Source of the DNA: Antarctobacter heliothermus
GTDB lineage: Bacteria > Pseudomonadota > Alphaproteobacteria > Rhodobacterales > Rhodobacteraceae
Assembly (NCBI RefSeq): GCF_002237555.1
Contig: NZ_CP022540.1
Coordinates: 2,547,001 to 2,611,000, forward strand
Reading direction: 5' to 3'
Length of the DNA stretch: 64,000 nt
In this document: piece by piece, positions 6,162-22,153 of the stretch
How the letters are laid out: each line of letters begins with the position of its first letter
How positions within the stretch are numbered: position 1 is the first letter of the stretch
The notes under the pieces: model-generated
What the model saw: only the letters and a program-made list of their open reading frames with translations
What the model was told of the DNA's origin: nothing
Databases searched by the model: none
Made by a program: the position numbers and the translations under genes

Positions 6162-6188
6162 GACGGGGGGAATGACTATAGACAAAGG

Positions 6189-6217
6189 GGCTCGGCAGCC
6201 TGTTGCCGGGCCTTTTT
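6189..6217 (+). terminator. Rho-independent terminator of the sugar-acid operon
   Basis: The stem GGCTCGGCA pairs with TGCCGGGCC (one G-T wobble) around a six-base loop and is followed by TTTTT. It lies between the convergent aldehyde dehydrogenase and methyltransferase genes. Confidence 0.8.
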
Positions 6218-6258
6218 CTGTTTCGGATCCTGATGTTCTTGGTAGGTGAACAGTCCTT

Positions 6259-7126: not shown

Positions 7127-8119
7127 TCAGGCAGAGTGCTGCGCCTCTGTTTCCAACAGGCAGGCCACCTGGCGACCGTCGCGCGCCAACAGGGGGGGGC
7201 GGATGTTGGCGCAATCGGGAATGCGTTTCGGGCAACGGGACTGAAACAGGCAGCCTTGGGGCAGGTTCATCGGGCTGGGCAGATCGCCGGTCAAAAGCTG
7301 CGGCTGCGTGCGGACGCGCGGGTCCGGCACCGGCACCGCTGACAGCAATGCCTGCGTGTAGGGGTGGCGCGGATCGTGCACGAGGTCGCGCGCCGGGGCC
7401 ATTTCCATCATCCCGCCCATGTACATGACCAGAATGTCGTCCGAGATGTGGCGCACCACGCCCAGATCATGGGCGACAAAAATCAGCGTCAGCCCCATCT
7501 CGCCCTGCAATTCCTTGAGCAGGTTGATCACCTGCGCCTGAATCGACACGTCCAGTGCCGAGACCGGTTCATCGCACAGCAGGATCTGCGGACGCGCAAT
7601 CAGCGCCCGCGCGATGCCGATGCGTTGGCACTGACCGCCGGAAAATTCGTGCGGGAACCGGTTCATGTTGCGTTGCGGAATGCCGACACGGTCCAGCATC
7701 TCGACCACTTTTTGTCGCCGCTCCTTTGCCGAGAACTCGGGGCAGAAGTAGATCAGCGGTTCGGCCACGATCTCACGGATGGTCATGCGCGGGTTGAGCG
7801 AGGCCATCGGGTCCTGAAAGATCATCTGCATCCGACGGCGCAGGCGTTGCATCTCAGCGCGGCGTCGATAGTCGATCTCTTCGCCCTCCAGCGTGACGGT
7901 GCCGCTGTCGCGAGGCCCCAACCCCGCAATTGCGCGGATCAGGGTAGATTTGCCGCATCCGGATTCGCCGACCACGCCCAGCACCTTGCCGGGCATCAGG
8001 TCAAAGCTGACGCCGTTGACCGCATGCAGGCGACCGGGCGGCGACCACGGAAACCGCTTCCCCTGACGATGTGGGAAAGTGACGTGCAGATCGCGGACGG
8101 ACAGGATCGGGGTGGTCAT
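7127..8119 (-). CDS. oppF: Oligopeptide/dipeptide ABC transporter ATP-binding protein OppF-like
   Basis: The 330-residue ATPase has Walker A GESGCGKST, signature FSGGQCQRIGIARAL and Walker B ILLCDEPVSALD, then the C-terminal opp/dpp segment GCLFQSRCP...VACLLE with its conserved cysteines. It energises peptide import at the inner membrane as partner of the OppD-like ATPase. The start at 8119 overlaps the oppD stop by four bases (ATGA), which argues against the longer upstream start. It is the last transporter gene of the operon. Confidence 0.9.
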   Translation of the reverse strand: MTTPILSVRDLHVTFPHRQGKRFPWSPPGRLHAVNGVSFDLMPGKVLGVVGESGCGKSTLIRAIAGLGPRDSGTVTLEGEEIDYRRRAEMQRLRRRMQMIFQDPMASLNPRMTIREIVAEPLIYFCPEFSAKERRQKVVEMLDRVGIPQRNMNRFPHEFSGGQCQRIGIARALIARPQILLCDEPVSALDVSIQAQVINLLKELQGEMGLTLIFVAHDLGVVRHISDDILVMYMGGMMEMAPARDLVHDPRHPYTQALLSAVPVPDPRVRTQPQLLTGDLPSPMNLPQGCLFQSRCPKRIPDCANIRPPLLARDGRQVACLLETEAQHSA

Positions 8120-9069
8120 GTCAACTCCTCCACCGGGCGGATACAGGCGCGACCGTCCTGCATTGTCGGCAAGGTCCGGTGGCATTCGGGGATCGCATCG
8201 ACGCAGCGCGGGGCAAAGGGGCAGGCGGTGGGCGCGCCGGTCTGGTTCGGCGGGCTGCCGGGGATCGCCGACAGTTCGGCGTCGTCGTCGGTGATCCGGG
8301 GCACAGCACGCAGCAGACCACGGGTATAGGGATGGCCGGGCGCGTCAAAGATCGACAGCGTCGGTGCAGCCTCCATCATGCGGCCACCGTATAGCACCAT
8401 CGTGTCCTCACAGAACCCGGCGACCACTCCCAGATCATGGGTGATCAACAGAACGGCGGTGCCCATGTCGCGCTGGATGTCGTCCAGCAGCGCCATGATC
8501 TGCGCCTGAACGGTCACGTCCAGCGCAGTAGTCGGCTCATCCGCAAGGATCAGGCGCGGTTTGCAGATCAGCGCCATGGCGATCACGATCCGCTGCCGCA
8601 TCCCGCCGGAAAACTCATGCGGATAGGCCTTGAGCCGGTTCTTGGCATCGGGGATTTTGACTGCGTCCATGACCTCTAGCGCGCGTTTGCGGGCGTCGCT
8701 GCGGCTGGCCCCCTCATGCAGTTCCACGACCTCGCCCAATTGGCGTTCGATGGTCATGTAGGGGTTGAGCGAACTCATCGGATCCTGAAAGATCAGAGCG
8801 ATTTCCTTGGCGCGCAGGCGGTTCAGCTCTGCCGTGGGCAGGCCGATCAGGTTGCGCCCGTTGTACAGGATTTCTCCCTCGACCTCGGCGTTGCGGGCCA
8901 GCAAGCCCATGATGGCCATTGCGATCTGGCTTTTGCCCGATCCGCTTTCGCCGACCAGCGCCAGTTTCTGTCCCTGCGCCATGTCAAAGCTGACATCGTT
9001 GACCGCGTGGATTTTTCCGTCGCCGGAGCGGAAACGGATCTTGACGTTTCTTACGGACAGCAGGGTCAT
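8116..9069 (-). CDS. oppD: Oligopeptide/dipeptide ABC transporter ATP-binding protein OppD-like
   Basis: The 317-residue ATPase carries Walker [10 protein letters not shown], signature [15 protein letters not shown], Walker [13 protein letters not shown] and the terminal opp/dpp domain with CPFAPRC. The serine or threonine after Walker A GKS is Q here, as in many OppD proteins. It couples to oppC by an ATGA overlap at 9066-9069 and to oppF by another at 8116-8119. With the permeases and binding protein it forms a peptide or amino-compound importer. Confidence 0.9.
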
Positions 9070-10001
9070 CGGCGATCCTTGGGGTCGAGGGCGTCGCGCA
9101 ATCCGTCGCCGATGTAGTACAGAGACACCTGCGCGATCACGAAGAAGGCGGCGGGATATCCCAACTGCCAGAGCGTGCCGAATGTCATGGTTTTGGCCCC
9201 CTCGGAAATCAGCGCACCCCAGCTGGTGTTCGGTTCCTGAATGCCTACGCCAAGGAAGGACACAAGGCTTTCGGCCATGATGACCTCTGGGATGACGATC
9301 GACGTATAGATCACGATCACCCAGAGGATGTTGGGGGCAAGGTGTTTGAAGATGATGGCAAAATCGCTCATCCCCAGCATCCGGGCGGCATCGACGAATT
9401 CGCGGTTCTTCAGCATCATGACCTGACCACGCACGATCAGCAGACCGGCGGTCCAGTTCACAAGGATGATCACGATGATCATCTGCGTCAGCGAGCGACC
9501 AAAAAACGCCTGCCAGACGACAAAGAAGATGATGTAGGGGATGGAGATCCAGATCGTGTAGAAACCGACGATGATCTGGTCCAGCCGCCCGCCGAAATAG
9601 CCCGCCAGCGCGCCCAACGTGGCCCCCAGCAACACCGCCAGCGGCCCGGCAACGAAACCCACCATCAACGATGTGCGTGAGCCTTGGACGACGCGGGCAA
9701 ACAGGTCTCGGCCCAATTCATCGACGCCAAAGTAGTGGCCGTTTTCCCAGTTCGGCCCGCCCTCTGTCTTGATCAGGCCCAACAGGTTCCAGTCGATTTC
9801 TTCATAGCTCCACTGCGCAAAGGCATGGCCAAAGATGGCAAACAGCAACAGTGCCAGCAACATGAAGATTGAGAACACGGCCAACCGGTGTCCGAAAAAT
9901 CGGCGGCGTGCGTCGGCCCAGAAGGACCGCGAAACGATCATCTCTTCGGCGACGGTTTGAGCGAACTCTTGGGAATTCAGGCGTTTTTTGGCGTCTGTCA
10001 C
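9066..10001 (-). CDS. oppC: Oligopeptide ABC transporter permease OppC-like
   Basis: A 311-residue inner-membrane permease with a cytoplasmic N-terminus, a first helix near residues 35-60 (FSIFMLLALLLFAIFGHAF), the long N-terminal periplasmic stretch usual for OppC, and the inner-membrane transport signature around AARMLGMSDFAIIFKHLAPN that contacts the ATPases. The C-terminus GDGLRDALDPK is diagnostic of OppC/DppC. It overlaps oppB (stop 9998) and oppD by ATGA junctions. Confidence 0.9.
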   Translation of the reverse strand: MTDAKKRLNSQEFAQTVAEEMIVSRSFWADARRRFFGHRLAVFSIFMLLALLLFAIFGHAFAQWSYEEIDWNLLGLIKTEGGPNWENGHYFGVDELGRDLFARVVQGSRTSLMVGFVAGPLAVLLGATLGALAGYFGGRLDQIIVGFYTIWISIPYIIFFVVWQAFFGRSLTQMIIVIILVNWTAGLLIVRGQVMMLKNREFVDAARMLGMSDFAIIFKHLAPNILWVIVIYTSIVIPEVIMAESLVSFLGVGIQEPNTSWGALISEGAKTMTFGTLWQLGYPAAFFVIAQVSLYYIGDGLRDALDPKDRR

Positions 10002-10927
10002 AGGTTGCTCCGCACCTTGGGGTCGATCCAGGCGTACATGAGGTCTAGCAATAGGTTCAGCGTGAAGGTCAGCAGGCTGTACAGCACCGCAAGACCCAGC
10101 AGCATCGCGTAGTCGCGGCTATAGGCCCCGTCGATAAAGTCCTGCCCGATCCCGCCGGTCGAAAAGAAGACGTCGATAAAGACCGATCCGGTGATCATGT
10201 AGACAAAGACCGGCCCCATGTAGGTCAGCGTTGGCAGCAGTGCCGGTTTCAGCGCATGTCGCCAGATAATGGTACGTTCGGGCAGGCCCTTGGACCGCGC
10301 AGTCAGGATAAAGGGCGCGTTTAACACCTCCAGCAAGGACCCCCGCGTCAGGCGCGCGACGCCGGCCATGTAGGATGTCCCCAGCGCGATGGCGGGCATG
10401 ACGATGTATTCCCATTGCCCGCCGTTCCACCCGCCGCCGGGCAGTAATCCCCATGACAGGGTGAACAGCAGAACGAGGATCGGCGCGAGGACGAAGTTGG
10501 GAAAGATCTGGGAAAAGATGGCGAGGCCCGTCATCGTGTAATCCCAGAAACTGTTGTGCCGCAGCGCCGCGACGATCCCCAGCGGGATGCCCAGCACCAG
10601 CACAAAGACCGCCGACCAGAACCCATAGGTGAGCGTCACCGGAAACCCTTGGGCGATCACGTCGTTCACCGTCCGGTCCTTTTGGGCAAAGCTGGGGCCG
10701 AAATCGAAGTGGAAGACGATGTTCTTTATGTAGGTCCAGAGCTGGACATACAGCGGCTGATCCATCCCGTAGCGTTCCAGCACGTTCTGCATCACTGCGG
10801 GCGGCAGGGGCTTCTCAGAGGTGAATGGACCGCCGGGGGCCAGTCGCATCAGGTAAAAGGAAAAGATGATCAGCACCAACAAGGTCGGAACGACCGTCAG
10901 GATGCGGCGCAGGGTATAGTTGAACAT
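9998..10927 (-). CDS. oppB: Oligopeptide ABC transporter permease OppB-like
   Basis: A 309-residue permease beginning MFNYTLRRILTVVPTLLVLI, the classic OppB N-terminal helix, with the ATPase-contact segment ILTARSKGLPERTIIWRHALKP and a C-terminus ending in YAWIDPKVR. The start at 10927 is chosen because the longer frame upstream would translate a palindromic repeat. The gap to oppA (151 bp) holds that repeat, which may lower expression of the membrane parts relative to the binding protein. Confidence 0.9.
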   Translation of the reverse strand: MFNYTLRRILTVVPTLLVLIIFSFYLMRLAPGGPFTSEKPLPPAVMQNVLERYGMDQPLYVQLWTYIKNIVFHFDFGPSFAQKDRTVNDVIAQGFPVTLTYGFWSAVFVLVLGIPLGIVAALRHNSFWDYTMTGLAIFSQIFPNFVLAPILVLLFTLSWGLLPGGGWNGGQWEYIVMPAIALGTSYMAGVARLTRGSLLEVLNAPFILTARSKGLPERTIIWRHALKPALLPTLTYMGPVFVYMITGSVFIDVFFSTGGIGQDFIDGAYSRDYAMLLGLAVLYSLLTFTLNLLLDLMYAWIDPKVRSNL

Positions 10928-10965
10928 GAAGGGTCCAGTGCAAAGGGCGTCGGGCGCGAAACCCC

Positions 10966-11050
10966 GTCCCGGGCCTGACCCGGGACCTTTTGCCAGCAGC
11001 AAAAGGCCCCGGATTGGCAACAGGGCAGAGGCCCCGGATCAGGTCCGGGG
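10966..11050. repeat. Intergenic palindromic repeat, copy 2, between oppA and oppB
   Basis: Contains two perfect inverted repeats: GTCCCGGG-N5-CCCGGGAC at 10966-10986 and CCCCGGA-N5-TCCGGGG at 11032-11050. A smaller TTTTGC...GCAAAA hairpin lies between them. The first element matches the one at 2573-2593 in 20 of 21 positions on the opposite strand; the second shares 13 bases with 2540-2552. Confidence 0.75.
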
Positions 11051-11078
11051 CGGTGGTCGCCAGTTGGCGTTGTCGCGC

Positions 11079-12695
11079 CTATTCGGCGACCTTGTAGAGG
11101 TCTTTTGCGTACCACGTCTGTTCGACGTTGTTGATCGGCCAGCCTTGGATTGAGTCGCTCAACATGATGTTGGTCGAGTAGTGGTAGATTGGGATCACCG
11201 GCATTTCGGCGGCAAGGATCGCTTCGACCTCGGCATACAGCGGATTAGTGTCCTGCGAGGATTTTGCCTCTGCCATCAACTCATCCACGCGGGCGTTGCT
11301 GAACTTGCCATCGTTGTAACCCGACTGCGTGGTCAGCAGATCGAGGAAGGTCGAGGCTTCGTTGTAGTCACCGCACCATGCACCGCGCGCCAATTCAAAG
11401 TTCTGGTTGCCGCGGGTTTCAAGGAAAACCTTCCATTCCTGATTTTCCAGCGTCACCTCTACACCCAGTTTCTGCTTCCACATCTGGCTGGCCACAATGG
11501 CGATCTGCTGGTGGCTCTCGGAGGTGTTGTAAAGATAGGTGAACGACAGTTTTTCACCGTCCGGACCGTATCCCGCCTCTGCCAGCAGTTCCTTGGCCTT
11601 CGCGTCACGCTCTGCCTGAGTCATGTTGGCGTAGTCGACCTCAGGAACCTCAAACCCGTCTGTGGCACCGGGGGTAAAGGTATAGGCCGAAAACTGGCCG
11701 CCTTGCAGCACGCGGTCAACGATCACGTCGCGGTCTAGTGCATAGGACAGCGCCTGACGTACGCGCACGTCCTGAAACGGCTCTGGGCCGTTCTTGACGT
11801 TGAAGGTCATGTAGTAGTTGCACAAGCGCGGAAGGGCATAAGCCTCATCCGGGAACTCTTCTTTCAGGGTCGGGTATTGGCCCGAAGGGATCTCTGTCTT
11901 GTCGACCTCACCGGCGCGCCAGCGGGTCAGTCCCTGTGCGTCGTCGCCGATGACCAGTGTCACGACCTTGTCGAGCACGGTCTTGTCGTTGTCCCAGTAC
12001 ATCTCGTTGCGCTCGCGGACCGAGCGTTCCTTGGGGACGTGTTCGGTCAGGACATAAGCGCCGTTGCTGACGATGTTCTCGGGGCGGGTCCATTCGGACC
12101 CGTGTTCGTCGATCACCCATTTGGGCGAGGGGAAAGTGGTTGCATGGCTAACCATCTTGGCGAAATAGGGCAGCGGCTGCGACAGTTGCACAACCAGTGT
12201 GTGATCGTCAGGGGCCGAGACGCCCAGATCGGTGATCGGCTTTTCGCCCGCGATGATGGCCGCGCCGTTCTCGATCGACATCAGTTCCATGTACCACGCA
12301 TAGGGAGAGGCCAGCTCAGGCTCGACCGCGCGCTGCCATGCGTAGACAAAGTCGCCGGCTGTGACGGGGGTGCCGTCAGACCACTTGGCATCATCGCGCA
12401 GGGTAAAGGTGTAGGTCTTGTTGTCTTCGCTGACGGTGTGGCTAAGGGCGACGCCGGGAACGATCTCGCCGTCGGCGTTCTGGTTGTAGAGCCCTTCGAA
12501 CAGGTCGCGCACAACCTCGGAGCCGTTCACATCCTCGACCACCTGCGGATCGAACGACGAAAACTCGTCCAGCACCCGGTAGGTAAAGACCTGTTCGGCG
12601 GCAAGCTGTGTGCCATCGGGGACATCGGCGGCAAAGGCTGCGGTGACCAGCGTAGTTGACAACAGCATCGGAATAATCGCGGAACGAATTTTCAT
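11079..12695 (-). CDS. oppA: Periplasmic oligopeptide-binding protein OppA/MppA-like
   Basis: A 538-residue family-5 solute-binding protein. It has a Sec signal peptide ending in LVTAAFA before ADVPDG, then the family motifs YTFTLRDDAKWSDGTPVTAGDFVYAWQ (residues ~93-120) and a C-terminal ligand lobe with GAWCGDYNEASTFLDLL. These match OppA/MppA more than DppA. It captures oligopeptides in the periplasm and hands them to OppBC. The start has GGGGAG upstream. It is first in its operon; a 200-bp gap upstream probably contains the promoter, though I could not pick a convincing -35/-10 pair. Confidence 0.9.
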   Translation of the reverse strand: MKIRSAIIPMLLSTTLVTAAFAADVPDGTQLAAEQVFTYRVLDEFSSFDPQVVEDVNGSEVVRDLFEGLYNQNADGEIVPGVALSHTVSEDNKTYTFTLRDDAKWSDGTPVTAGDFVYAWQRAVEPELASPYAWYMELMSIENGAAIIAGEKPITDLGVSAPDDHTLVVQLSQPLPYFAKMVSHATTFPSPKWVIDEHGSEWTRPENIVSNGAYVLTEHVPKERSVRERNEMYWDNDKTVLDKVVTLVIGDDAQGLTRWRAGEVDKTEIPSGQYPTLKEEFPDEAYALPRLCNYYMTFNVKNGPEPFQDVRVRQALSYALDRDVIVDRVLQGGQFSAYTFTPGATDGFEVPEVDYANMTQAERDAKAKELLAEAGYGPDGEKLSFTYLYNTSESHQQIAIVASQMWKQKLGVEVTLENQEWKVFLETRGNQNFELARGAWCGDYNEASTFLDLLTTQSGYNDGKFSNARVDELMAEAKSSQDTNPLYAEVEAILAAEMPVIPIYHYSTNIMLSDSIQGWPINNVEQTWYAKDLYKVAE

Positions 12696-12895: not shown

Positions 12896-13690
12896 TCAGG
12901 CCGGGTCGCAGATCAGGGGCGTATTGGCCATGTTGGCCCAGTAGGCCGCGATCTCAGGCAGGCTGTCTGCCTTGAAGATCAAGGCCACAGGGCCGGTTTC
13001 CGTGTGGACTAGCCCGAGTGCCAAATCCGCGTCAACCCGGCGAGTCATGAGTAGAATTTCATTTTCCTTCAGGATGTTGCCCAGATTATTTTGGTCGTCA
13101 AAAGCCTTGCCTGCAAGATTGGACAGATCGTCGGGAAGGGGCTGCCCCGGTTGTGTCACAAGAGGTTTCTGGCCCGGGCGGCAAATCGCGATCAGAACCT
13201 CGTCTGCGGCCTCAATCAGATAGGCAAGGCGGTCGGGCACGGCCAAGTCAAACGAGGTCAGGCCCAATGTGTGCAGCATCGCCGGGCAGGTCAGCCCCGC
13301 GTGCGTCGGATCGGACGCGGCCCCATGTGGCGAAGTCGAAAACGTGATGACCTGCTCACCAGGAAAGGCCCTGGATAAGAGAGCGGCAACCGGCCCCAGA
13401 TCGGCGGGTCGCAATGGACGACTTATCAGGTCAGCACACCCTGCACGCAGAGAGGTGGAGGCGTCGATCAGTTGCATCAGGTTTCCGGAAGCGACCTCCA
13501 TCCCAAGAAGCAATCCGCTCTCGTCCGAGACTGTCATTCTGCGCGGCAGGATGCAGGATGCAATTGCGTCCAGCACAGAGCCGAGCGCCTCTTCTGATGT
13601 GGCGACCTCGATCCGACGGGGACCGGTGCCTAGTGCCGCTGCTCTGGACAGGATGGTCGCAAGATCGGCGGGCACTTCCTTGCCGGTCAT
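12896..13690 (-). CDS. Unknown protein, last gene of the kinase/GTPase operon
   Basis: A 264-residue soluble protein that I do not recognise. The start ATG at 13690 overlaps the stop of the Roadblock-like gene by four bases (ATGA), so the longer upstream frame is rejected. The middle segment (MTVSDESGLLLGMEVASGNLMQL, then PVAALLSRAFPGEQVITFSTS) alternates short strands and helices and could be a divergent profilin-like or Roadblock-like fold, but that is speculation. No signal peptide or transmembrane helix is evident. Its coupling to the Roadblock-like gene suggests the two proteins act together. Confidence 0.75.
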   Translation of the reverse strand: MTGKEVPADLATILSRAAALGTGPRRIEVATSEEALGSVLDAIASCILPRRMTVSDESGLLLGMEVASGNLMQLIDASTSLRAGCADLISRPLRPADLGPVAALLSRAFPGEQVITFSTSPHGAASDPTHAGLTCPAMLHTLGLTSFDLAVPDRLAYLIEAADEVLIAICRPGQKPLVTQPGQPLPDDLSNLAGKAFDDQNNLGNILKENEILLMTRRVDADLALGLVHTETGPVALIFKADSLPEIAAYWANMANTPLICDPA

Positions 13691-14028
13691 GCCACGCGGT
13701 CCCGGTGAAACAGGGCGGCACCGGCTGCGCAGGCGGCACCAAGGTCCGCCGCCGGTCCGAACAATCCGCAAAGCACCTCTGTCGCGTCGTCGGGCGATTG
13801 CACAAAGACCCGGCTGCCGGTGGGGCCGGCCAGGATGGCGGTTCCTGTTGCCGCCAAATCACCGGTAAACACTGACCGTGCCAGATCACAGAGGTGATCC
13901 AGCCGTTCCTGACCGAAATGCACATCGCTGTCAGACATCAACACTGTGCCGGTCGACAGATCGACGAGCGTCAAGAGTTCGCAGGTGCCTATACCGGCGC
14001 GAAACCGGGAAAGATCGTCATGGGTCAT
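13687..14028 (-). CDS. Roadblock/LC7-like small protein
   Basis: A 113-residue protein whose order of elements fits Roadblock/LC7 domains: a helix, a strand pair LLTLVDLSTGTVLMSDSD, a long helix LDHLCDLARSVF, then strands and a final helix DLGAACAAGAALF. Roadblock proteins such as MglB act as regulators or scaffolds of small GTPases. It lies in an operon with two intact GTPases and one degenerate one, 97 bp after GTPase A. The sequence around its start is duplicated: CATGGGTCAT occurs at 14019-14028 and 14033-14042, giving a five-codon leader frame whose stop overlaps the chosen ATG. Family assignment is by eye only. Confidence 0.6.
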   Translation of the reverse strand: MTHDDLSRFRAGIGTCELLTLVDLSTGTVLMSDSDVHFGQERLDHLCDLARSVFTGDLAATGTAILAGPTGSRVFVQSPDDATEVLCGLFGPAADLGAACAAGAALFHRDRVA

Positions 14029-14125
14029 AGGACATGGGTCATGGAGCCGCCTTCACGCCCCAGTCATGGCCCATCGTGGGTTAATTTCACCTTACGAATG
14101 GCTCGACGACGGATCGACAACCGGG

Positions 14126-14971
14126 TTAGGCGGGCCTGTTTTCCGACGCCGCGCGATGGTCGCCGGATTTTGTGCGGATTATCCTACGCGGCACAACCCG
14201 ACCGGGGCGGGCTGGATTGGCGGGCGCAGGGGCGGCCGTCGCTTTCGGGCGCGGCGGTGTGGCAAGCGGCGCAGTGCGCGGGCTATCCAGCCCTTCGAGA
14301 GCGTGGCATAGGAACTCTACCAGCGCCGCAGCACCTGTCGCGCCCAACACCTCGTCGTCGTCTCGTCCCGCCAGCGCACCGGTCAGCGAGATCGGCAACA
14401 CGTCACGAAAAAGTGCACCGGCCTCGGCTCGCACGCGGGCCATGACACGGGCGCGGTCCCGTTCGGTCTGCATTTGGTCGATGCGGGTGACCAGCAGCAG
14501 GCTTTTGGTCCAGAGCAGCGGCGGCACCTGTTCCCACAGCGCCGCCTCTGACTGTCGCCACGCCTGATTGGCAGGGGTGCACCAGATCGCAAGATCGACC
14601 TCAGGCAGGAAGCGGGACCAGAAATCCGGGGCCATGTTGGGGTCCGCCGTTCCGGGCATGTCGATCAGGTCACAGGCGTGCAGAATGTCCGCCCCCAGTC
14701 CGACAGAGATCATGCGCGTGTCATCGGGCCGGACCTGCGACCAGTCGTCAATCGGCAGTGGCTCTGACCGGCCGTCAATGTCGATGCGCTGCGCCTCTGG
14801 CGGGCCTTGCCTGTACCAGACCGGTGGCAGCTGCGTCGCCGTGACCTGCACCGGAGATCTGTCCTGCCCAAGCAGCAGGTTTGCCAGCGTGCTTTTTCCG
14901 GCGCTAAATTCGCCCATCAGGGCGACGCGCGGATTGCGGGGCTTGGGGGCGGTTGGGGACTCTGGTGTCAT
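14126..14971 (-). CDS. Dynamin-like / 50S-type P-loop GTPase A
   Basis: A 281-residue protein with a complete set of G motifs: G1 GEFSAGKST (20-28), a threonine-containing G2 region VTATQLPP, G3 DMPG (104-107) and G4 TRID (162-165). The glycine-glutamate-phenylalanine-serine G1 is usual for bacterial dynamin-like GTPases. The C-terminal tail (about 230-281) is proline/alanine-rich, basic and probably disordered. It overlaps the stop of GTPase B by ATGA, so synthesis is coupled. Predicted to form a hetero-complex with GTPase B; role unknown. Confidence 0.8.
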   Translation of the reverse strand: MTPESPTAPKPRNPRVALMGEFSAGKSTLANLLLGQDRSPVQVTATQLPPVWYRQGPPEAQRIDIDGRSEPLPIDDWSQVRPDDTRMISVGLGADILHACDLIDMPGTADPNMAPDFWSRFLPEVDLAIWCTPANQAWRQSEAALWEQVPPLLWTKSLLLVTRIDQMQTERDRARVMARVRAEAGALFRDVLPISLTGALAGRDDDEVLGATGAAALVEFLCHALEGLDSPRTAPLATPPRPKATAAPAPANPARPGRVVPRRIIRTKSGDHRAASENRPA

Positions 14972-16971
14972 CTGGCTGACCTCTTGAGGCGGTTCACAGG
15001 GGCGGTGGGGGGCAATTCTATTGCAGGCGGTGCGGCAGCTTGCTGCGCAAGGCCAAGAAGGACATCGCGTTGACCCTGCATGAAATCGCTCAGTGTTTGG
15101 CGCATTGCCTGAGCATGGGGCGCGGCGCATTGCTGGTGCAGCGTCTCCACGACCGGCTTTGTCTCTTCATGGATCAGCCGGGCAAAGTCCTCTGAAAACG
15201 CCTCATACCCGCGCTGACGCCGCCAGAATCGTGCCCACCAACTGCCGCGCAGGTCCAATGCGATGGTCTGGCCAAGGCCGATTGGCGCGGGAACGGCGGG
15301 CAGGGGCGGGGGGGCGATGGCCGGCCCGTCAGAGGCCAGACCAAAGGCATGATGATACAGCGCGCTGATGTCATTGGCGGCATTGGTCAGAACGGCGGCT
15401 CCGGTCTTTCCCGCCCCCTGCGCAAAGACCTTGTAGGCGCTGCGCAGCAGCATCCGCAGGCCGGAGGGGTCATAGGTCCAGATCTCGTCCTCACCAAACT
15501 GTTCCAGGTGCTTGATCAGTGACCCGGTCGCCCGTCCCAGAAAGGCGCGGCGGGCATTGTCGGTGCGCCCGGCAAAACTGCGGTGAACCTTGTCCAGCCC
15601 CGATTCCAGCGCGGCGTGCGCGCGGTCCTCGATCTGATCGAACTGCTGGACCAAATCCTGCGGCGTGATTTGCAGGTGACGCGGCCCGGCATTGGCGGAG
15701 GTGTCCTGTTGCGTCCTCGCAGCCAATCCTGTTCGCAGGTTTCCCAGCGCAACCCCCAGCGATTCCTCAAGTCGAGCACCGGGCCCCTTGTCGATCCGAT
15801 CTGATATTGCGTCGCCAAGGGCCCGCAACCCGGACAGATGCCATATTATCTCACGCGGGGATAACTGTGCCAGTGCGCCGGTCACATGTGTCTCTGCCCA
15901 GGACACCAGCGCCTTCGCGCTGTCCGCGCCTAGTTCGGCAAAACTGTCCGCGACCGCGTGGTGGGCCCAAAAACCACTGCCAAACAGGATCTCGGCCTCT
16001 TGCGGGCCGTCGAATTTGCGCAGTGTCTCGACAATGCTGGCGCGGATCTGGGGAACCGCCTGAACCGGGTCGGCCAACTCATCGATACGATTGACAAAGA
16101 TGATCACCTCACGCGCTTTGACGTTGGAAATCAGCCGGATCAGCCCAAGGTCGACCGAAGACAGCGCCTGTTGCGCCGACAGGACCACCACACATAGACG
16201 GCTGCCGCGCAGTGCGTTGATGGTGATCTGTTCGCGGATCATGAAGGTGTCGTTCACCCCCGGCGTGTCGCGTAGGCACAAGGGCAAGGGCAGGTCAGGC
16301 CCGGCAAACCACAGGTCTGCGGATTTGGTGATGTCGGCGAAACGGCCCTGATCCGGGCTGCCGTCTGCCTCCTCCCAGAAATCGTCGCCAAGGCAGACGT
16401 AGCGCTGGATCAGTTCCTTGTCGAACGTCTCATAGTTGTGGGTCTGTCCCAGCAGCATCTGGAACTTGCGCCCCAGCCGTGCCTTTGATTTCTCGCGCAT
16501 CTCGTCCAGTTGGGCGCGGACCTTTTCAAGCTCATCCTCGGCCCCGGCGCGGGCGGCAATCTCTCCGACGCGGCCCCCCTGACGGATCAGGTTGTCCCAT
16601 TCGTCGTTGGTAAAGAACCGAAACGCAGAGCGTCGGTCCTGCCGGCGCATCTGCGGCTGCATGTGCAGCGAGGTGACAACAGACGTCCACGGGTTGACGT
16701 CGGCCGGCAGCAGATCGGGCCAGCCGGTGAGCGCGTTCACAAGGGTTGTCTTGCCCGCCTTCACCTGACCGATCAGCGTCACAGAAGGTTCAAACCCGCG
16801 CAACTGGCGGCGCAATTCGCGTGCTTGATGGGCAATCGATTCCTCACCGCAACCGGCCAGTTCGATCATGGCCTCGTCCAGCGCGCCAAGACGGGTGGCC
16901 AATGCGCCCAGCCCGGAAAACGCACTTAACGCGGGCCGGTCTTTGGGCGTTGTGGGGGCCTGCGGTGTCAT
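14968..16971 (-). CDS. Dynamin-like GTPase B, large
   Basis: A 667-residue GTPase with G1 GQVKAGKTT (68-76), a G2 threonine near 96, G3 DTPG (235-238) and G4 NRID (294-297). A long insertion (about 105-225) separates G1 from G3. The C-terminal half is helical, as in dynamin-like proteins, and contains an aromatic-basic cluster WWARFWRRQRG at 578-588 that could be a membrane-contacting paddle. The start at 16971 has GAGG eight bases upstream. It sits 46 bp after the degenerate GTPase C and overlaps GTPase A. Predicted membrane-remodelling GTPase regulated by the neighbouring kinase system. Confidence 0.82.
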   Translation of the reverse strand: MTPQAPTTPKDRPALSAFSGLGALATRLGALDEAMIELAGCGEESIAHQARELRRQLRGFEPSVTLIGQVKAGKTTLVNALTGWPDLLPADVNPWTSVVTSLHMQPQMRRQDRRSAFRFFTNDEWDNLIRQGGRVGEIAARAGAEDELEKVRAQLDEMREKSKARLGRKFQMLLGQTHNYETFDKELIQRYVCLGDDFWEEADGSPDQGRFADITKSADLWFAGPDLPLPLCLRDTPGVNDTFMIREQITINALRGSRLCVVVLSAQQALSSVDLGLIRLISNVKAREVIIFVNRIDELADPVQAVPQIRASIVETLRKFDGPQEAEILFGSGFWAHHAVADSFAELGADSAKALVSWAETHVTGALAQLSPREIIWHLSGLRALGDAISDRIDKGPGARLEESLGVALGNLRTGLAARTQQDTSANAGPRHLQITPQDLVQQFDQIEDRAHAALESGLDKVHRSFAGRTDNARRAFLGRATGSLIKHLEQFGEDEIWTYDPSGLRMLLRSAYKVFAQGAGKTGAAVLTNAANDISALYHHAFGLASDGPAIAPPPLPAVPAPIGLGQTIALDLRGSWWARFWRRQRGYEAFSEDFARLIHEETKPVVETLHQQCAAPHAQAMRQTLSDFMQGQRDVLLGLAQQAAAPPAIELPPTAPVNRLKRSAR

Positions 16972-17017
16972 CTGTGTTGCCTCATGTGGTTGCGCGGACT
17001 GTCCATGTGTTGGGCTT

Positions 17018-18187
17018 TCAGGCGGCCAGCCGTTCCTGAATGTCGTGGCGGACCTGCACCAGCAGATGCGCGGCGTCGCCCAATTGTTCTGCGCCGCCCT
17101 CGATCCGCAACAGCAGGGCAAGGTCGTGGGCCTGCGTCACTTGGGTGGCCAGATCGGGCCACGTCTCTTGCAGGGCGACGTCCCCGGTGACCCGATCGGC
17201 CAACGCCTCGAAAATCTGTTCGAACTGCATCAGTAGGGTGTCGGTATTGCCTGCGGTCCCATCGTAAAGCCTGCGCAGCATGTCCTGGGCAGAGGTGCGG
17301 ACCGCCTGAAACAGTCGTGCGAGCTCTGCAATGGCCTCGGGTGGGACTTGGGGTGCCACGGCGGGTGAGGCGGGGCGGGGGATGGTGGCGGTTTGGGTAA
17401 CTTCATCCGCTTGTGATGGAGGCGCCGGCAAAGATGGCCGCGCGGATAGAGCACCGTTGCGTTGCAGAAACATTTGCGCGGCATGAATATCGTGCAGGCA
17501 GGCGTCTTTGATGGTTCGGTCCAGATAGGTGGCCAGTTCTGAAAAACTCTCAGCACCCGACTGACCAGCGCTGCTGAACCGGGTCTCAAACCCATCTGCC
17601 GCCGGATCGCTTCGGCGCTGCCCCTTCCCGGTGACAAACAGGATCGCGTGATTGCGCAGACTGTCCGGTGCGGTATGCCAGACCTGCCGTTCTGCCTCTG
17701 ACCAATCCACCGTACACCATAGCGCGATGTCGATACGGGGCGCGGCCCATGTCAGAGCGGCCTGCAGATCCTCGGCGTTGGCTTCGGTCGAGACAAGCAG
17801 AACACACCGCCCCACCAGCGCCTTGTCCGGGGATGTCACCTGCAAAAAGACCGGTTGCTGTGCCAACAGGGCCGGGTCCGGCAGGCCGGACGCCTCAAGC
17901 CTGCCGCCATCCACCATCATGGCCGTGGTCGCAGGCACCGGGCCATAGGTGATTTCCAAGGTCGGAGCCCAACCCGGATGGTCGGCTACAGTAAGTCCGG
18001 TCAGGGCGTGTAGCACACGGCGTTTTCCGGCCCCGGGCAGGCCAAACAGGCCAATTCGGACCGGCCTGTCCAGTTTCTCTAGTAGAGAGGCACATGTCGC
18101 CCCGGCCCGCGCGGCCAGTTTGCCGTGCTGTTGCAAGGTGGCCAGGCCTTTGAGCGTCTCGGATCTGAGCATGTCCTGATCTGTCAC
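17018..18187 (-). CDS. Degenerate (pseudo-)GTPase C
   Basis: A 389-residue protein with a recognisable but altered P-loop, GLPGAGKRR (49-57): the serine/threonine that binds Mg2+ is arginine (R56). No DxxG G3 motif is present where expected (VLLVSTEANAED), and the G4 region reads VTGKG instead of N/TKxD. A proline/alanine-rich linker at about 250-300 precedes a helical C-terminal domain. The layout matches a dynamin-like partner that has lost catalysis. Its ATG overlaps the phosphatase stop (ATGA at 18184-18187). A regulatory or scaffolding role towards GTPases A and B is inferred. Confidence 0.75.
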   Translation of the reverse strand: MTDQDMLRSETLKGLATLQQHGKLAARAGATCASLLEKLDRPVRIGLFGLPGAGKRRVLHALTGLTVADHPGWAPTLEITYGPVPATTAMMVDGGRLEASGLPDPALLAQQPVFLQVTSPDKALVGRCVLLVSTEANAEDLQAALTWAAPRIDIALWCTVDWSEAERQVWHTAPDSLRNHAILFVTGKGQRRSDPAADGFETRFSSAGQSGAESFSELATYLDRTIKDACLHDIHAAQMFLQRNGALSARPSLPAPPSQADEVTQTATIPRPASPAVAPQVPPEAIAELARLFQAVRTSAQDMLRRLYDGTAGNTDTLLMQFEQIFEALADRVTGDVALQETWPDLATQVTQAHDLALLLRIEGGAEQLGDAAHLLVQVRHDIQERLAA

Positions 18188-19080
18188 GGACCCGTCCTTC
18201 GGCCCACGGCGCGCAGGGCTTGGCTGCGGATCGGAAAGAGGGGGCGGATCAAATCAGCCAACTGGGAAGCGATCCGCGCGCCGGACAACGACGAGGACTC
18301 GACAAGGGCCAACCGGATTACGACCAGCGTGACGTTGTCCTGTTGCGGGGCTTTTTGTGTGCGTACCGCGTCCAAAAGCGCGCCGGTCATCGCCACACTG
18401 TCTTTGTGGGCGTTTCGTTTGAGGATCTGCGCGATCTCTGCCTCTGACAGGACATTCAACCCGTCGCTGGCGAGAATGATGCTGTCGCCGGGTTCAAGTG
18501 TCAGGGCCTCGCCGGGGCAATCGACGTGCGGGATCTCGCCCCCGGTTACGGCTGAGGTCAGGCAATGGCGATGCGGGTGTTGCGCGGCGGCGCTGGCCTC
18601 CATCGCGCCGGTTTTCACCATCAGATCCAGTTGGATGGCCATGGAATGCAGTTGGTTCAACTGCTGCAACCGACCGTCGCGGTACAGGTAGAGCGGACTG
18701 TCGCCAACCGACATCCACCGCAGTGCGCGCCCCTCGACAGTAACGCATACCAACGTGCCGCCGGTGTCGACGCTGATGTATCCGGCGTCGATGTGTTGTT
18801 TCAGGCGCGCGTTTGTCCGTTCCAGCGCGGCGTGAAACACCTCTTCCGGCGTTTCGCTGCGTCGGTCTGGGCGAGCCGCTGCAAGATACATCTCGCCGAA
18901 CATTTCGCTTGCGAGAATGCGACCAGCCAGATCCCCGTCGTCATGTCCGCCCATGCCGTCCGACAGGACGGCAACCCCCGGCATGTCGCCCTGCGGGAAC
19001 TGCGCGATAACCGCGTCTTCTTGGCGGCTGCGCGCGCCGATGTACTGGCCGCTGGCGGCCTCTGCGACCAGATCAGTCAT
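18184..19080 (-). CDS. PP2C-family Ser/Thr protein phosphatase
   Basis: A 298-residue PPM phosphatase containing the metal-site motifs RSRQEDA (17-23), VLSDGMGGHDDG (38-49), ILASDGL and a C-terminal QQDNVTLVVIRL. It removes phosphate from Ser/Thr with Mn/Mg. No transmembrane helix is seen. The start at 19080 overlaps the FHA stop by eight bases (ATGACTGA). Within this operon it is the natural antagonist of the kinase and may act on the FHA protein or the GTPases. Confidence 0.92.
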   Translation of the reverse strand: MTDLVAEAASGQYIGARSRQEDAVIAQFPQGDMPGVAVLSDGMGGHDDGDLAGRILASEMFGEMYLAAARPDRRSETPEEVFHAALERTNARLKQHIDAGYISVDTGGTLVCVTVEGRALRWMSVGDSPLYLYRDGRLQQLNQLHSMAIQLDLMVKTGAMEASAAAQHPHRHCLTSAVTGGEIPHVDCPGEALTLEPGDSIILASDGLNVLSEAEIAQILKRNAHKDSVAMTGALLDAVRTQKAPQQDNVTLVVIRLALVESSSLSGARIASQLADLIRPLFPIRSQALRAVGRRTGP

Positions 19081-20023
19081 TGCCGATCCCCGACGCATCC
19101 GTGTCGGCCCAGGAAAACCCGTCATCGCATAGCCCGACAAAGCGCAGCACCGTCTTGCCAATCCGGACCGTGTCGCCGTCGTTGAGTTCCTCAGTCGTCA
19201 AAAGCGGCCTGTCATTGTGGCGCACGATGTTGCTTTTGCCGCCGTGGCCGATGTATGTCCGACCGTCCTCGTCGTCATGGGCGATAGAGATATGCCGCTC
19301 ACGCGAGATGCTGGTATCGCCAAAATCCAGTGTAACGGTCTGGTCCGCGTCACGTCCGACGGTCGACAGTCCCGCTGTCAGGGCAAAGGACGCCCCGCGA
19401 CCGGGGCCTTCGATGACAACGATCCAACCGATAGGAAAGCGCGGCGCGCTGGCTGTGGGGATGACCGCGGGGGCGGCAAAGGGGTCGGGAGTGCCTGCCT
19501 CGCTGTGAAAGCCCAGGAGCCGTGTCTTGACCCGTTCAGAGGTCGGGCGCGGTAGGGGATCGGCGGGCGCGACCAACCCAGCGGCGCTGCGCGCTAGTGG
19601 CGAAACCGTTTCCGCAGGTTCAGAGTGCAGCTGGTCCGATACGTCGGACCGGGCGGGGGCGGCCGCTGCGGCCGAAGGGTCCAGATCCCAGATCTTTGGC
19701 GTACTACCGGTGCTGGTCCGGGTTAGGGGGGCAATACCGGGATCAGCCCGTGGTGCCACAATCGGCTCTGGCGAGAGGTCGCTTTCCGGGTCCAAAGCGG
19801 ACGGCGCCCATTCCTGACGGGGCGAGGGCTGTGGTCGCTCTGGCCTGGGAATGTGATCGCGCGCAGCCCGGGCGTTGTCCTTGTCACAGGTCCGAGGGTC
19901 CGGCTTTGTGCCCACACGGGCGTGCAACTCTTCCCATGGATCGACCAGCGGTTCGGGATCGGTCCCGGAGGCAGGGTCCGATGCGGGACGCCGTCTTGCT
20001 ATCAGGTTCCTGATGCCCTGCAT
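19073..20023 (-). CDS. FHA-domain protein with long disordered N-terminus
   Basis: A 316-residue protein. Residues 1 to about 195 are low-complexity, rich in P, A, S, T and charged residues, and probably disordered; TSTGST in this part is a plausible phosphorylation site. The C-terminal FHA domain (about 200-297) shows G223-R224, S240, H244, N265 and the closing ELNDGDTVRIGKTVLRF, all expected for a phosphothreonine-binding domain. It starts 16 bp after the kinase stop and overlaps the phosphatase gene. It probably reads the kinase output and recruits partners. Confidence 0.9.
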   Translation of the reverse strand: MQGIRNLIARRRPASDPASGTDPEPLVDPWEELHARVGTKPDPRTCDKDNARAARDHIPRPERPQPSPRQEWAPSALDPESDLSPEPIVAPRADPGIAPLTRTSTGSTPKIWDLDPSAAAAAPARSDVSDQLHSEPAETVSPLARSAAGLVAPADPLPRPTSERVKTRLLGFHSEAGTPDPFAAPAVIPTASAPRFPIGWIVVIEGPGRGASFALTAGLSTVGRDADQTVTLDFGDTSISRERHISIAHDDEDGRTYIGHGGKSNIVRHNDRPLLTTEELNDGDTVRIGKTVLRFVGLCDDGFSWADTDASGIGND

Positions 20024-20039
20024 TGCAATTCACCTTTTC

Positions 20040-21353
20040 TCAAACATTAGTCTGGATGCCGTCGCGCGCACTGCGCGAGGGCCAGGGCAGCAGAGCGCTC
20101 AGCGAAAATCGGCGCTGGCGTCGCGCCGGCGGAGCGGATGTTTCGATCTGCGCGCTTGCCGGGATAGGGTCGGGGGCCGTTTGCGGTGCCCAATCGGCGG
20201 GATCCTCGTTCAGAATGGCCCAGTACGCGCGCTCTGCCGCGCGCTTTTCCGCCTCTGGGTCCGGTGTTCGGGTTTGGGCCGCGGGGGCTGTGGGGTGCGC
20301 CGAATCCGCCTCGATGGCCTGATGGTTGCTGGCCACGAGTTCGGCGATTTTCGACTCGATCTCTGGGTCATCCTGAGGGGGCCGGGGGATGGCCGCTGCA
20401 GGTGGCGCGACAGCCGCAGTGCTCTGGCGACCCGACAACGCGTCAAGCCAGGCGTCGGCGCTTTGCAGACGGTCCTTGGCAAACAGGTTCAGGCATTGGT
20501 CGATGGCCGCCAGCAGACGCTGATCCTGCGCCGGGAACCGCCCCAGCAGAGGGCGATAAGGGTCTGGCTTTTGCTCCGCCACGGCTGCCAGCCGTAGACT
20601 GCTATTGGGGGGCGGATGCCCCTCGATCAGGTGCACAAAGGTGGCCGCCAGCGCGTAGAGGTCACTGGACCGCGATTGCGCGCTGCCCGCGATGTAAAAC
20701 TCTTGCGGGGAATACCCGTCCTTGACGGTATGGACGCGGGACAACACGCGGCTTGCCTGACTGGCACCCTGCCGGGCCGCGCCGAAATCAATCAGGACAG
20801 GCGTACCCATCGTGTCGAGCAGAATGTTGTCGGGTGAGATGTCGCGGTGCAGGATGCCGTTGCGATGCACATAGCTGAGCGCCTGCAACAGGATCACCGC
20901 CAGTTCGCGGGTCGCCTCGGGTGTCAGCGCGTTTGGGCTATAGTCGATCATGTCGAACAGATCGGTCCCCTCGACGAAATCCAGCGCCATGTAGGCCGTG
21001 CCATTGGCCTCAAATATCTGGTGGACGCCCACAATGTTGGGATGCTGCAAATGTGCCAGCGCGCGCGCCTCTTTCTGGAACAATTCGACCGCGCGGCTGA
21101 AATCCACGTCAAAGGTCTGGGACCGCAGGCGCACGGCCTCACCGGCGCGACAGCAGATCGCGTTGGGAAAACACTCTTTGATGACAACGCGGCGGCCTAG
21201 GCTGTCACGCGCCAGATATGTGATCCCGAACCCGCCAGCATTCAGGTATTTGTCGACAGTGTATTGCCCGTTGCACAGGGTGGTGCCGGGGGGCAACCCA
21301 TCGCCAACGTGCTGTGAGGCGGCAGGTGCCTGGATCTTCGACTGATGCGTCAT
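20040..21353 (-). CDS. Ser/Thr protein kinase (Hanks type), soluble
   Basis: A 437-residue kinase with glycine-rich loop NAGGFGITY (38-46), VVIK lysine K59, helix-C glutamate near E95, HRD catalytic loop (H169, D171, N176) and DFG (189-191). It is the subclass with GGFGITYLARD and IKECFP. The kinase domain ends near residue 308 and is followed by a helical and proline-rich region (to 437) without a clear transmembrane segment. The start at 21353 has a strong GGAGG eight bases upstream; the longer frame lacks one. It is the first gene of the eight-gene operon and presumably phosphorylates the FHA protein and/or GTPases. Confidence 0.92.
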   Translation of the reverse strand: MTHQSKIQAPAASQHVGDGLPPGTTLCNGQYTVDKYLNAGGFGITYLARDSLGRRVVIKECFPNAICCRAGEAVRLRSQTFDVDFSRAVELFQKEARALAHLQHPNIVGVHQIFEANGTAYMALDFVEGTDLFDMIDYSPNALTPEATRELAVILLQALSYVHRNGILHRDISPDNILLDTMGTPVLIDFGAARQGASQASRVLSRVHTVKDGYSPQEFYIAGSAQSRSSDLYALAATFVHLIEGHPPPNSSLRLAAVAEQKPDPYRPLLGRFPAQDQRLLAAIDQCLNLFAKDRLQSADAWLDALSGRQSTAAVAPPAAAIPRPPQDDPEIESKIAELVASNHQAIEADSAHPTAPAAQTRTPDPEAEKRAAERAYWAILNEDPADWAPQTAPDPIPASAQIETSAPPARRQRRFSLSALLPWPSRSARDGIQTNV

Positions 21354-21550
21354 TCCGGGTCCTCCTGAGTAACGTGAGCAGCCCGCGTTTTGTGGCAAAC
21401 GGGGGGCGCTGCACGGCGGACACCGTCAAATCATCAGCAAATGCGGCCCGGGCGGTGTTCTAAACTGGACGAAAACATGTCGCTTTGGGCGAGTTAAATT
21501 AAACCTTTACAATAGTTTGTCAGGATATCGGTGCACAAGGGGCGACCATG
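21354..21550 (-). promoter_or_regulatory. Probable promoter region of the kinase/GTPase operon
   Basis: A 197-bp gap upstream of the kinase, with an AT-rich patch at about 21490-21520 in otherwise GC-rich DNA. Reading leftward, CTGACA is followed 17 bases later by AATTTA, a poor -35/-10 pair, so the exact promoter is not claimed. Confidence 0.35.
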
Positions 21551-22153
21551 TCACCGCATCTTGCGGGTTTTGCGCAACTTGAGGACCAGAAGCGTGGCGA
21601 GGGTCACGGTCATGGCGGCAGAGACAATCATGCCCGACCAGTCTGTGACGATGTCCGTCAATTCCTCCAGCCGACTGCCAAAGGCAAAGCCCAGTGTCAC
21701 ATAGGCCGTGACCCAGATCGTTTCCCCGGCCACGTCCCAGACCGTGAATCGCCAGCGTTCCAGTCGCGCGGCCCCGGCGATCAGGTTGACCCAAGGCCCC
21801 AGAGGCGCAAACAGCCAAGTCGACAGGAACACGCCAATCCCGCCCCAATGGTGGACCGTATCGCGCGCCCGACCGATCAGTTTGTGGCGGCCGGTGCGCC
21901 GTGCAATGGCGTCGATCAGGGGCGGGCCGCCCCAGCGCCCGATGTGAAACCCGGTCTGGTCGCCCAGAACCGCGGCCAGCCATGCGGTGCCCAGCACTTG
22001 CCAAAACACCAGATCCCCCGCCGCCGCAAATCCCCCTGCGGCCAGCATGATGACGGCCGTGGGAATCGGAATAGCGAGACAGGACAAAAACGCCGAACCG
22101 GCGACAACCCACAGGCCATATGTCGACACCAAAGCAAACAGCGTCTCAGTCAC
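21551..22153 (-). CDS. DedA-family membrane protein
   Basis: A 200-residue integral membrane protein of the DedA/VTT family, which is implicated in lipid translocation and membrane homeostasis. Characteristic stretches are FLSCLAIPIPTAVIMLAAGGFA, LGDQTGFHIGRWGG and the F/GxxxR-containing FAPLGPWVNLIAGAARLERWRF, with a basic C-terminus KLRKTRKMR. The start is GTG at 22153, overlapping the stop of the preceding small membrane gene (GTGA) with AGAGG upstream. The two form a small operon read towards the kinase locus. Confidence 0.85.
   Translation of the reverse strand: MTETLFALVSTYGLWVVAGSAFLSCLAIPIPTAVIMLAAGGFAAAGDLVFWQVLGTAWLAAVLGDQTGFHIGRWGGPPLIDAIARRTGRHKLIGRARDTVHHWGGIGVFLSTWLFAPLGPWVNLIAGAARLERWRFTVWDVAGETIWVTAYVTLGFAFGSRLEELTDIVTDWSGMIVSAAMTVTLATLLVLKLRKTRKMR

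Follow-up and report, generated by a model that had tools for sequence, protein, structure and literature searches.

What would a bacterium do with two dynamin-like GTPases encoded in one run of genes with a Ser/Thr kinase, an FHA protein, a PP2C-type phosphatase and a Roadblock-fold protein? The question is raised by a 64,000-nucleotide stretch of the Antarctobacter heliothermus genome (contig NZ_CP022540.1, positions 2,547,001 to 2,611,000), called the window here, in which eight genes, K, F, P, C, A, B, R and U, follow one another on the minus strand from position 21353 to 12896. An earlier note, made from the letters alone, had listed these genes in this order; the limits agree with our check of the open reading frames, and no frame holds an internal stop. 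On balance we favor the reading that the set encodes a dedicated membrane-tethering or remodeling machine of the Rhodobacteraceae, in which the A-B dynamin pair is joined to an R/U regulator and a K-F-P switch.

Results

The protein A (positions 14968 to 16971, 667 residues) is a bacterial dynamin-like protein by domain, alignment and solved-chain matches. It matches Pfam Dynamin_N above the cut-off (E 8.3e-11), and in an alignment of 28 chosen sequences (two further alignments held 8 and 16 chosen sequences) its motifs GQVKAGKT, DTPGVND and NRID are intact, so that it carries the GxxxxGK[ST], DTPG and NRxD elements of a dynamin-superfamily GTPase. Across modules of the window type, the P-loop of A is canonical in 117 of 118 and DTPG[VI]ND is present in 117 of 118. 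Near the C-terminus lies an aromatic and basic WWxxFW motif, which as a sign of lipid binding is only suggestive. The nearest relatives of A are found in Antarctobacter (89-91% identity) and Mameliella (75%).

The gene for B (14126 to 14971, with the ATG at 14971 according to the translation) lies side by side with that for A, overlapping it by 4 bases, and this adjacency recurs across loci. Its product of about 281 residues matches Dynamin_N (E 1.8e-9; 38.3 bits against a cut-off of 27) and consists of a GTPase domain and a low-complexity tail. The two genes had been described as encoding two intact dynamin-like GTPases; this is right for the Dynamin_N domain of both, but B is not a full dynamin, as it lacks the long C-terminal region of A. 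When the two proteins were compared by sequence with solved structures, they preferred opposite chains of the same entry, 5owv: A matched 5owv_A (E 6.9e-13) and 2j68_A, which is BDLP1 (1.8e-12), ahead of 5owv_C (4.6e-6), and B preferred 5owv_C (7.7e-20) over 5owv_A (4.3e-7). According to the accessible part of PMC6104087, 5owv is a 2:2 tetramer of Campylobacter jejuni Cj-DLP1 and Cj-DLP2 able to bind liposomes and tether them, Cj-DLP2 being the adaptor, and bacterial dynamin genes are mostly paired in operons; from the masses given there we take chain A (732 residues) to be Cj-DLP1. The tail of B holds a motif, RVVPRRI in the window, whose general form [VIL]xP[RK]R[VIPM] occurs in 32 of 37 module loci compared with 19 of 1850 shuffled tails, and which may be a docking site.

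To see whether these genes travel together, we surveyed 295 genomes of the family Rhodobacteraceae, one per genus, scoring at most five K and eight U candidates per genome, so that absences of these two genes are soft. A is present in 77 genomes, K in 66 and U in 65. U always occurs with A (65 of 65 genomes; Fisher p 2e-53, phylogeny ignored), and K is accompanied by A in 62 of its 66 genomes (p 5e-44, phylogeny likewise ignored). The case named beforehand as refuting, that such GTPases would rarely accompany the kinase genes in other genomes, did not arise, GTPase A being found with K in 62 of the 77 A-positive genomes. K and U are together in 60 genomes and discordant in 11. A was not found outside the family: among 289 genomes sampled across the class, two match it at E 1e-30, namely, the host itself and a second member of the Rhodobacteraceae.

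Gene order was followed in two sets of loci. The first consists of 60 regions around A, hand-picked for length and variety, from 55 of the 76 other A-positive genomes; here the exact order K-F-P-C-A-B-R-U is found in 31 loci, the block P-C-A-B-(R,U) in 36, and F and P within the locus of A-B in 40. The second holds the best 80 of at least 499 confirmed loci, which biases it to close relatives (11 of the 80 carry an A already in the other set), and shows the exact order in 63. The parts also stay together through rearrangement. Other layouts include A-B-R-U-A'-C-K-F-P (L077), A-B-R-U-C-K-F-P (L078), an inverted K-F-P beside A-B-R-U-C (L079) and A-B-A'-C (L082-L086). Plasmid copies of module parts occur in Leisingera and Ruegeria: a Leisingera aquaemixtae plasmid has the exact order, and on the Leisingera S132 plasmid A-B-R-U faces C-P-F, with K further on. 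A dN/dS ratio could be calculated for 59 of 64 gene comparisons; it lies between 0.01 and 0.36 in all of these, which indicates purifying selection, and A is the best conserved of the eight proteins in most pairs compared. An order that recurs across genera together with low dN/dS shows that the gene set is more than chance, and the conclusion that the eight genes form one functional unit is supported. In one otherwise complete module (L046), A is split by an in-frame TGA (8991-11060, minus strand).

The three genes upstream of the GTPases could encode a complete phosphorylation circuit. K (20040 to 21353, 437 residues with a basic C-terminal tail) is a Ser/Thr kinase by Pfam Pkinase (E 4.3e-31), and the consensus over module loci keeps the ATP-binding loop GGFGxTY, the catalytic Lys, HRDxSPDN (HRDISPDN in the window) and DFG. 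F (19073 to 20023, 316 residues) has a long low-complexity N-terminus followed by an FHA domain (Pfam E 2.6e-5; 25.0 bits against a cut-off of 20.7) in which the phosphopeptide-binding residues GR, SR..H and N are conserved. P (18184 to 19080, 298 residues) scores above the cut-off with PP2C_2 (E 2.9e-8) and SpoIIE (2.4e-10) and below it with NCBIfam Stp1 (2e-35); its PP2C metal-binding motifs QED, DGMGGH, SDG and QDN are kept. Judged from these residues, the identities first proposed for K, F and P hold, and the residues are consistent with working proteins. K-type kinases are also found away from A: G151, G185, G191 and other genomes have up to five (at most five were scored), many of them in frames of 700-1000 residues.

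R (13687 to 14028, 113 residues) has a Roadblock/LC7 fold according to structure prediction, which bears out its first description as Roadblock-like. Its sequence gave only insignificant, unrelated matches to solved structures. A putative second Roadblock family among the loci, R2, gave no match to solved structures by sequence; two of its eight members match Pfam Robl_LC7 weakly, below the cut-off (best E 0.0058). A Roadblock-type domain is encoded in 56 of 61 loci and is fused to the partner GTPase in five of these. The partner GTPases of L089 (7762-9024) and L090 (10985-12388) carry the domain at the C-terminus, in the domain order of eukaryotic Rag GTPases. In L085 (5247-7094, minus strand), one protein combines dynamin-type GTPase, dual-specificity tyrosine-phosphatase-like and Roadblock domains, and L091 has a stand-alone phosphatase similar to that domain (5699-6241) beside R-U.

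U (12896 to 13690, 264 residues; 43 matches less L036 and L039-L042 were aligned) had been put down as unknown, and indeed none of C, R and U reaches the cut-off of any Pfam family. Its C-terminal half may nevertheless be a second Roadblock/longin-like domain according to the predicted model; a second paralogous fold in the N-terminal half was not established. Rag/Ragulator chains are among the structural matches of the predicted R and U models. The Leisingera plasmid record lists R, U and C only as "hypothetical protein"; their identity there comes from hidden Markov models (HMM).

C (17018 to 18187, 389 residues) is a GTPase related to B by sequence. The earlier note had called it degenerate, and this is true of the window, where its P-loop reads GLPGAGKR, but the P-loop is canonical in 80 of 116 window-type modules and in 11 of 12 of other layouts (that of B in 116 of 116), and C looks like a remnant partner GTPase rather than a third dynamin. 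Purifying selection acts on it nonetheless, with dN/dS of 0.06-0.35 in the comparisons that gave a value. In an unrooted tree of B and C proteins, made by one method, the 38 C proteins from window-type loci group together in a single clade (support 0.993), nested in a clade of 59 with 16 of the 18 partners of A', two partners of A and three others. This placement and the A-B-A'-C layouts suggest that C is the remainder of a second pair, A'-C, after A' was lost. L077, L078, L079 and L181 suggest intermediate layouts for the loss of A' and for a move of K-F-P from behind the dynamins to in front of them.

The layout in the window is compact. F/P overlap by 8 bases and P/C and R/U, like A/B, by 4; the remaining junctions are gaps of 16 (K/F), 46 (C/A) and 97 bases (B/R). 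Overlaps of 4-8 bases had been claimed for five of the seven junctions, and their size is right, but there are four. The operon likely starts in the intergenic stretch 21354 to 21550 (minus strand), where an AGGAGG-like ribosome site precedes the ATG of K; a consensus scan of this stretch found no sigma-70-like site. Both flanks are ordinary: downstream lies a peptide-type ABC transporter set (7127-12695), and upstream lie a VTT-domain (DedA-like) membrane protein and a thiamine-diphosphate enzyme. The VTT-domain gene (DedA/SNARE-associated type; 21551-22153, minus strand) ends 197 bases upstream of K and is not a conserved neighbor across loci. Outside the module, a loose cluster including ABC ATPases occurs in 14 of 61 loci, and no other neighbor family in more than six. 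Where the A proteins of two loci are 70% identical or more, flanking genes are shared in 150 of 180 pairs; below that identity, they are shared in 30 of 2305, so the position of the locus is stable among close relatives.

Discussion

Homology, conserved motifs and adjacency point to a heterotypic pair like Cj-DLP1/Cj-DLP2, in which the dynamin-like A would act on the membrane and B would be the GTPase that partners it. From its fold, its position and the gene fusions, we infer that R, probably with U, would bind the short GTPases B and C and either regulate or scaffold them, the part that Roadblock proteins play for small GTPases. C, a paralogue of B with a variable P-loop, may have been kept as a partly non-catalytic, scaffolding subunit. 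The intact residues of the kinase, FHA and PP2C domains and their co-conservation suggest a phospho-switch: K would phosphorylate one of the subunits, the target probably being a disordered tail (that of B, C or F); F would read the phosphothreonine, and P would remove the phosphate, so that the A-B pair switches between assembled and disassembled. A more specific version, which we regard as rather improbable, is a logic resembling that of Rag-Ragulator, by convergence or deep kinship, with an R-U Roadblock platform holding active B and partly inactive C on the membrane in a phosphorylation-dependent way and licensing A to tether or fuse membranes.

Several results weigh against this reading. 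For A, the fit of BDLP1 almost equals that of 5owv_A, and the helical trunk through which Cj-DLP2 serves as an adaptor has no counterpart in B. Among the B proteins of loci that are laid out differently, only 7 of 23 carry the tail motif. None of the eight proteins of the window has a predicted transmembrane segment, so the case for membrane action is one of homology, and a membrane-targeting role for the K tail was rejected, as its basic amphipathic character (26 of 28) is not clearly above that of shuffled tails (68%). None of 44 R members (46 matches less L061 and L085, which are long or fused) matches Pfam Robl_LC7 at E up to 1, so R is assigned by fold and not by sequence family, and the R and R2 profiles do not align (probability 3.6). 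Finally, K is missing in 15 of the 77 A-positive genomes (soft absences) and the block P-C-A-B-(R,U) in 24 of the 60 loci, which means that not every A-B pair needs the phospho part. A Loktanella locus (sp. RGIG994, L155) has C-A-B-R-U without K-F-P despite 10 kb of upstream sequence; the phospho part can therefore be lost or moved.

The other explanations rank after the membrane machine, in the order polarity switch, defense system and chance neighbors. If the set were a spatial switch, B and R would mark a pole or site like MglA/MglB, A would only be recruited, and K-F-P would set the timing. This is unlikely: the pairing of a Roadblock protein with a GTPase has precedents in MglB and the conservons (PMC4316618, as far as its accessible part goes), but the best solved relative of B is a dynamin-like protein and not a Ras- or MglA-type one, no Ras- or MglA-type Pfam family matches A, B or C at E up to 1, and the conservation of A suggests a core component rather than a client.

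Somewhat less probable still is a role in anti-phage defense, in which the set would be related to Eleos (LeoA/LeoBC) and switched by its kinase. The PADLOC LeoA model matches A (E 7.7e-13), defense-system kinase models match K, and the presence of A is patchy (77 of 295 genomes), with plasmid copies. The stable locus position and strong purifying selection speak against it, however, as do the facts that the PADLOC matches are partial and of generic families and that no A relative occurs in 50,697 phage records. A defense island was also considered; the flanking genes give no support.

It is quite improbable that the set is made up of separate operons, one of K-F-P with C and one of A-B-R-U, that lie side by side by chance. 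Loci with A-B-R-U and no K-F-P nearby, such as L072, and the gaps of 97 and 46 bases inside the set would fit this. On the other hand, the parts have re-associated in several different arrangements, including that of the S132 plasmid, and the distribution of K and U, mostly in the same genomes, makes it unlikely.

PpkA/Fha/PppA triads of kinase, FHA protein and phosphatase regulate type VI secretion in other bacteria, and the window encodes the same three protein kinds. That the set controls type VI secretion at the post-translational level and has captured dynamins is nonetheless very improbable, and for this genome the idea is refuted unless the type VI genes escape the VipB model. The host genome has no type VI sheath gene VipB (PF05943 search, with a positive Escherichia coli control), so the locus does not lie in a type VI cluster, the case in which the earlier note would have taken its reading as refuted. 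The TagH model reaches only E 0.15 for F, 53 of the 77 A-positive genomes lack VipB, and its weak positive trend (24 of 77 A-positive versus 47 of 218 A-negative genomes, odds ratio 1.65) is not significant (p 0.12).

A link to photosynthesis through intracytoplasmic membranes was also tried and rejected. PF00124 is found in 39 of the 77 genomes with A and in 82 of the 218 without it (p 0.059). Split by U, the numbers are 34 of 65 and 87 of 230, with a nominal p of 0.045. Neither result is convincing, as phylogeny was ignored and several tests were made.

How does the membrane machine that we favor compare with known systems? Like Cj-DLP1/Cj-DLP2, it has adjacent genes for a long and a shorter dynamin-like GTPase; the accessible text of PMC6104087 mentions an HcpA-like beta-lactamase gene in the Campylobacter operon and no kinase, FHA, PP2C or Roadblock gene. 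MglA/MglB and the actinobacterial conservons also encode a GTPase with a Roadblock protein, to which conservons add a kinase and an uncharacterized protein; there, in what could be seen of PMC4316618, the GTPase is of Ras type and the kinase a histidine kinase, whereas the window has dynamin-type GTPases and a Ser/Thr kinase, FHA and PP2C. That paper, which surveys Ras-type GTPases of prokaryotes together with the Roadblock proteins that go with them, does not use the word dynamin. With eukaryotic Rag GTPases and Ragulator the module has in common separate Roadblock scaffold proteins and, in the L089 and L090 fusions, GTPases that end in a Roadblock domain; this is a resemblance of architecture only. 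Eleos has another gene set and resembles the module in the weak, partial match of the LeoA model to both A and B. We know of no kinase or Roadblock partners of BDLP1 or other bacterial dynamin-like proteins.

The earlier note knew of no described system that joins both kinds of regulator to dynamin-like proteins, and we likewise found none combining a dynamin pair, a Roadblock protein and a Ser/Thr phospho-circuit in the titles and abstracts searched, which covered few subscription papers or preprints. The parts are of known kinds, and joining them appears to be new. In our judgment, little is settled about what turns bacterial dynamin-like proteins on or off. The dynamin pair described here is conserved together with a phosphorylation circuit and with Roadblock regulators, the two kinds of switch that eukaryotes use for their membrane GTPases. 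As culturable relatives in Leisingera, Ruegeria and Yoonia carry the set, the question can be tested by deletion and imaging.

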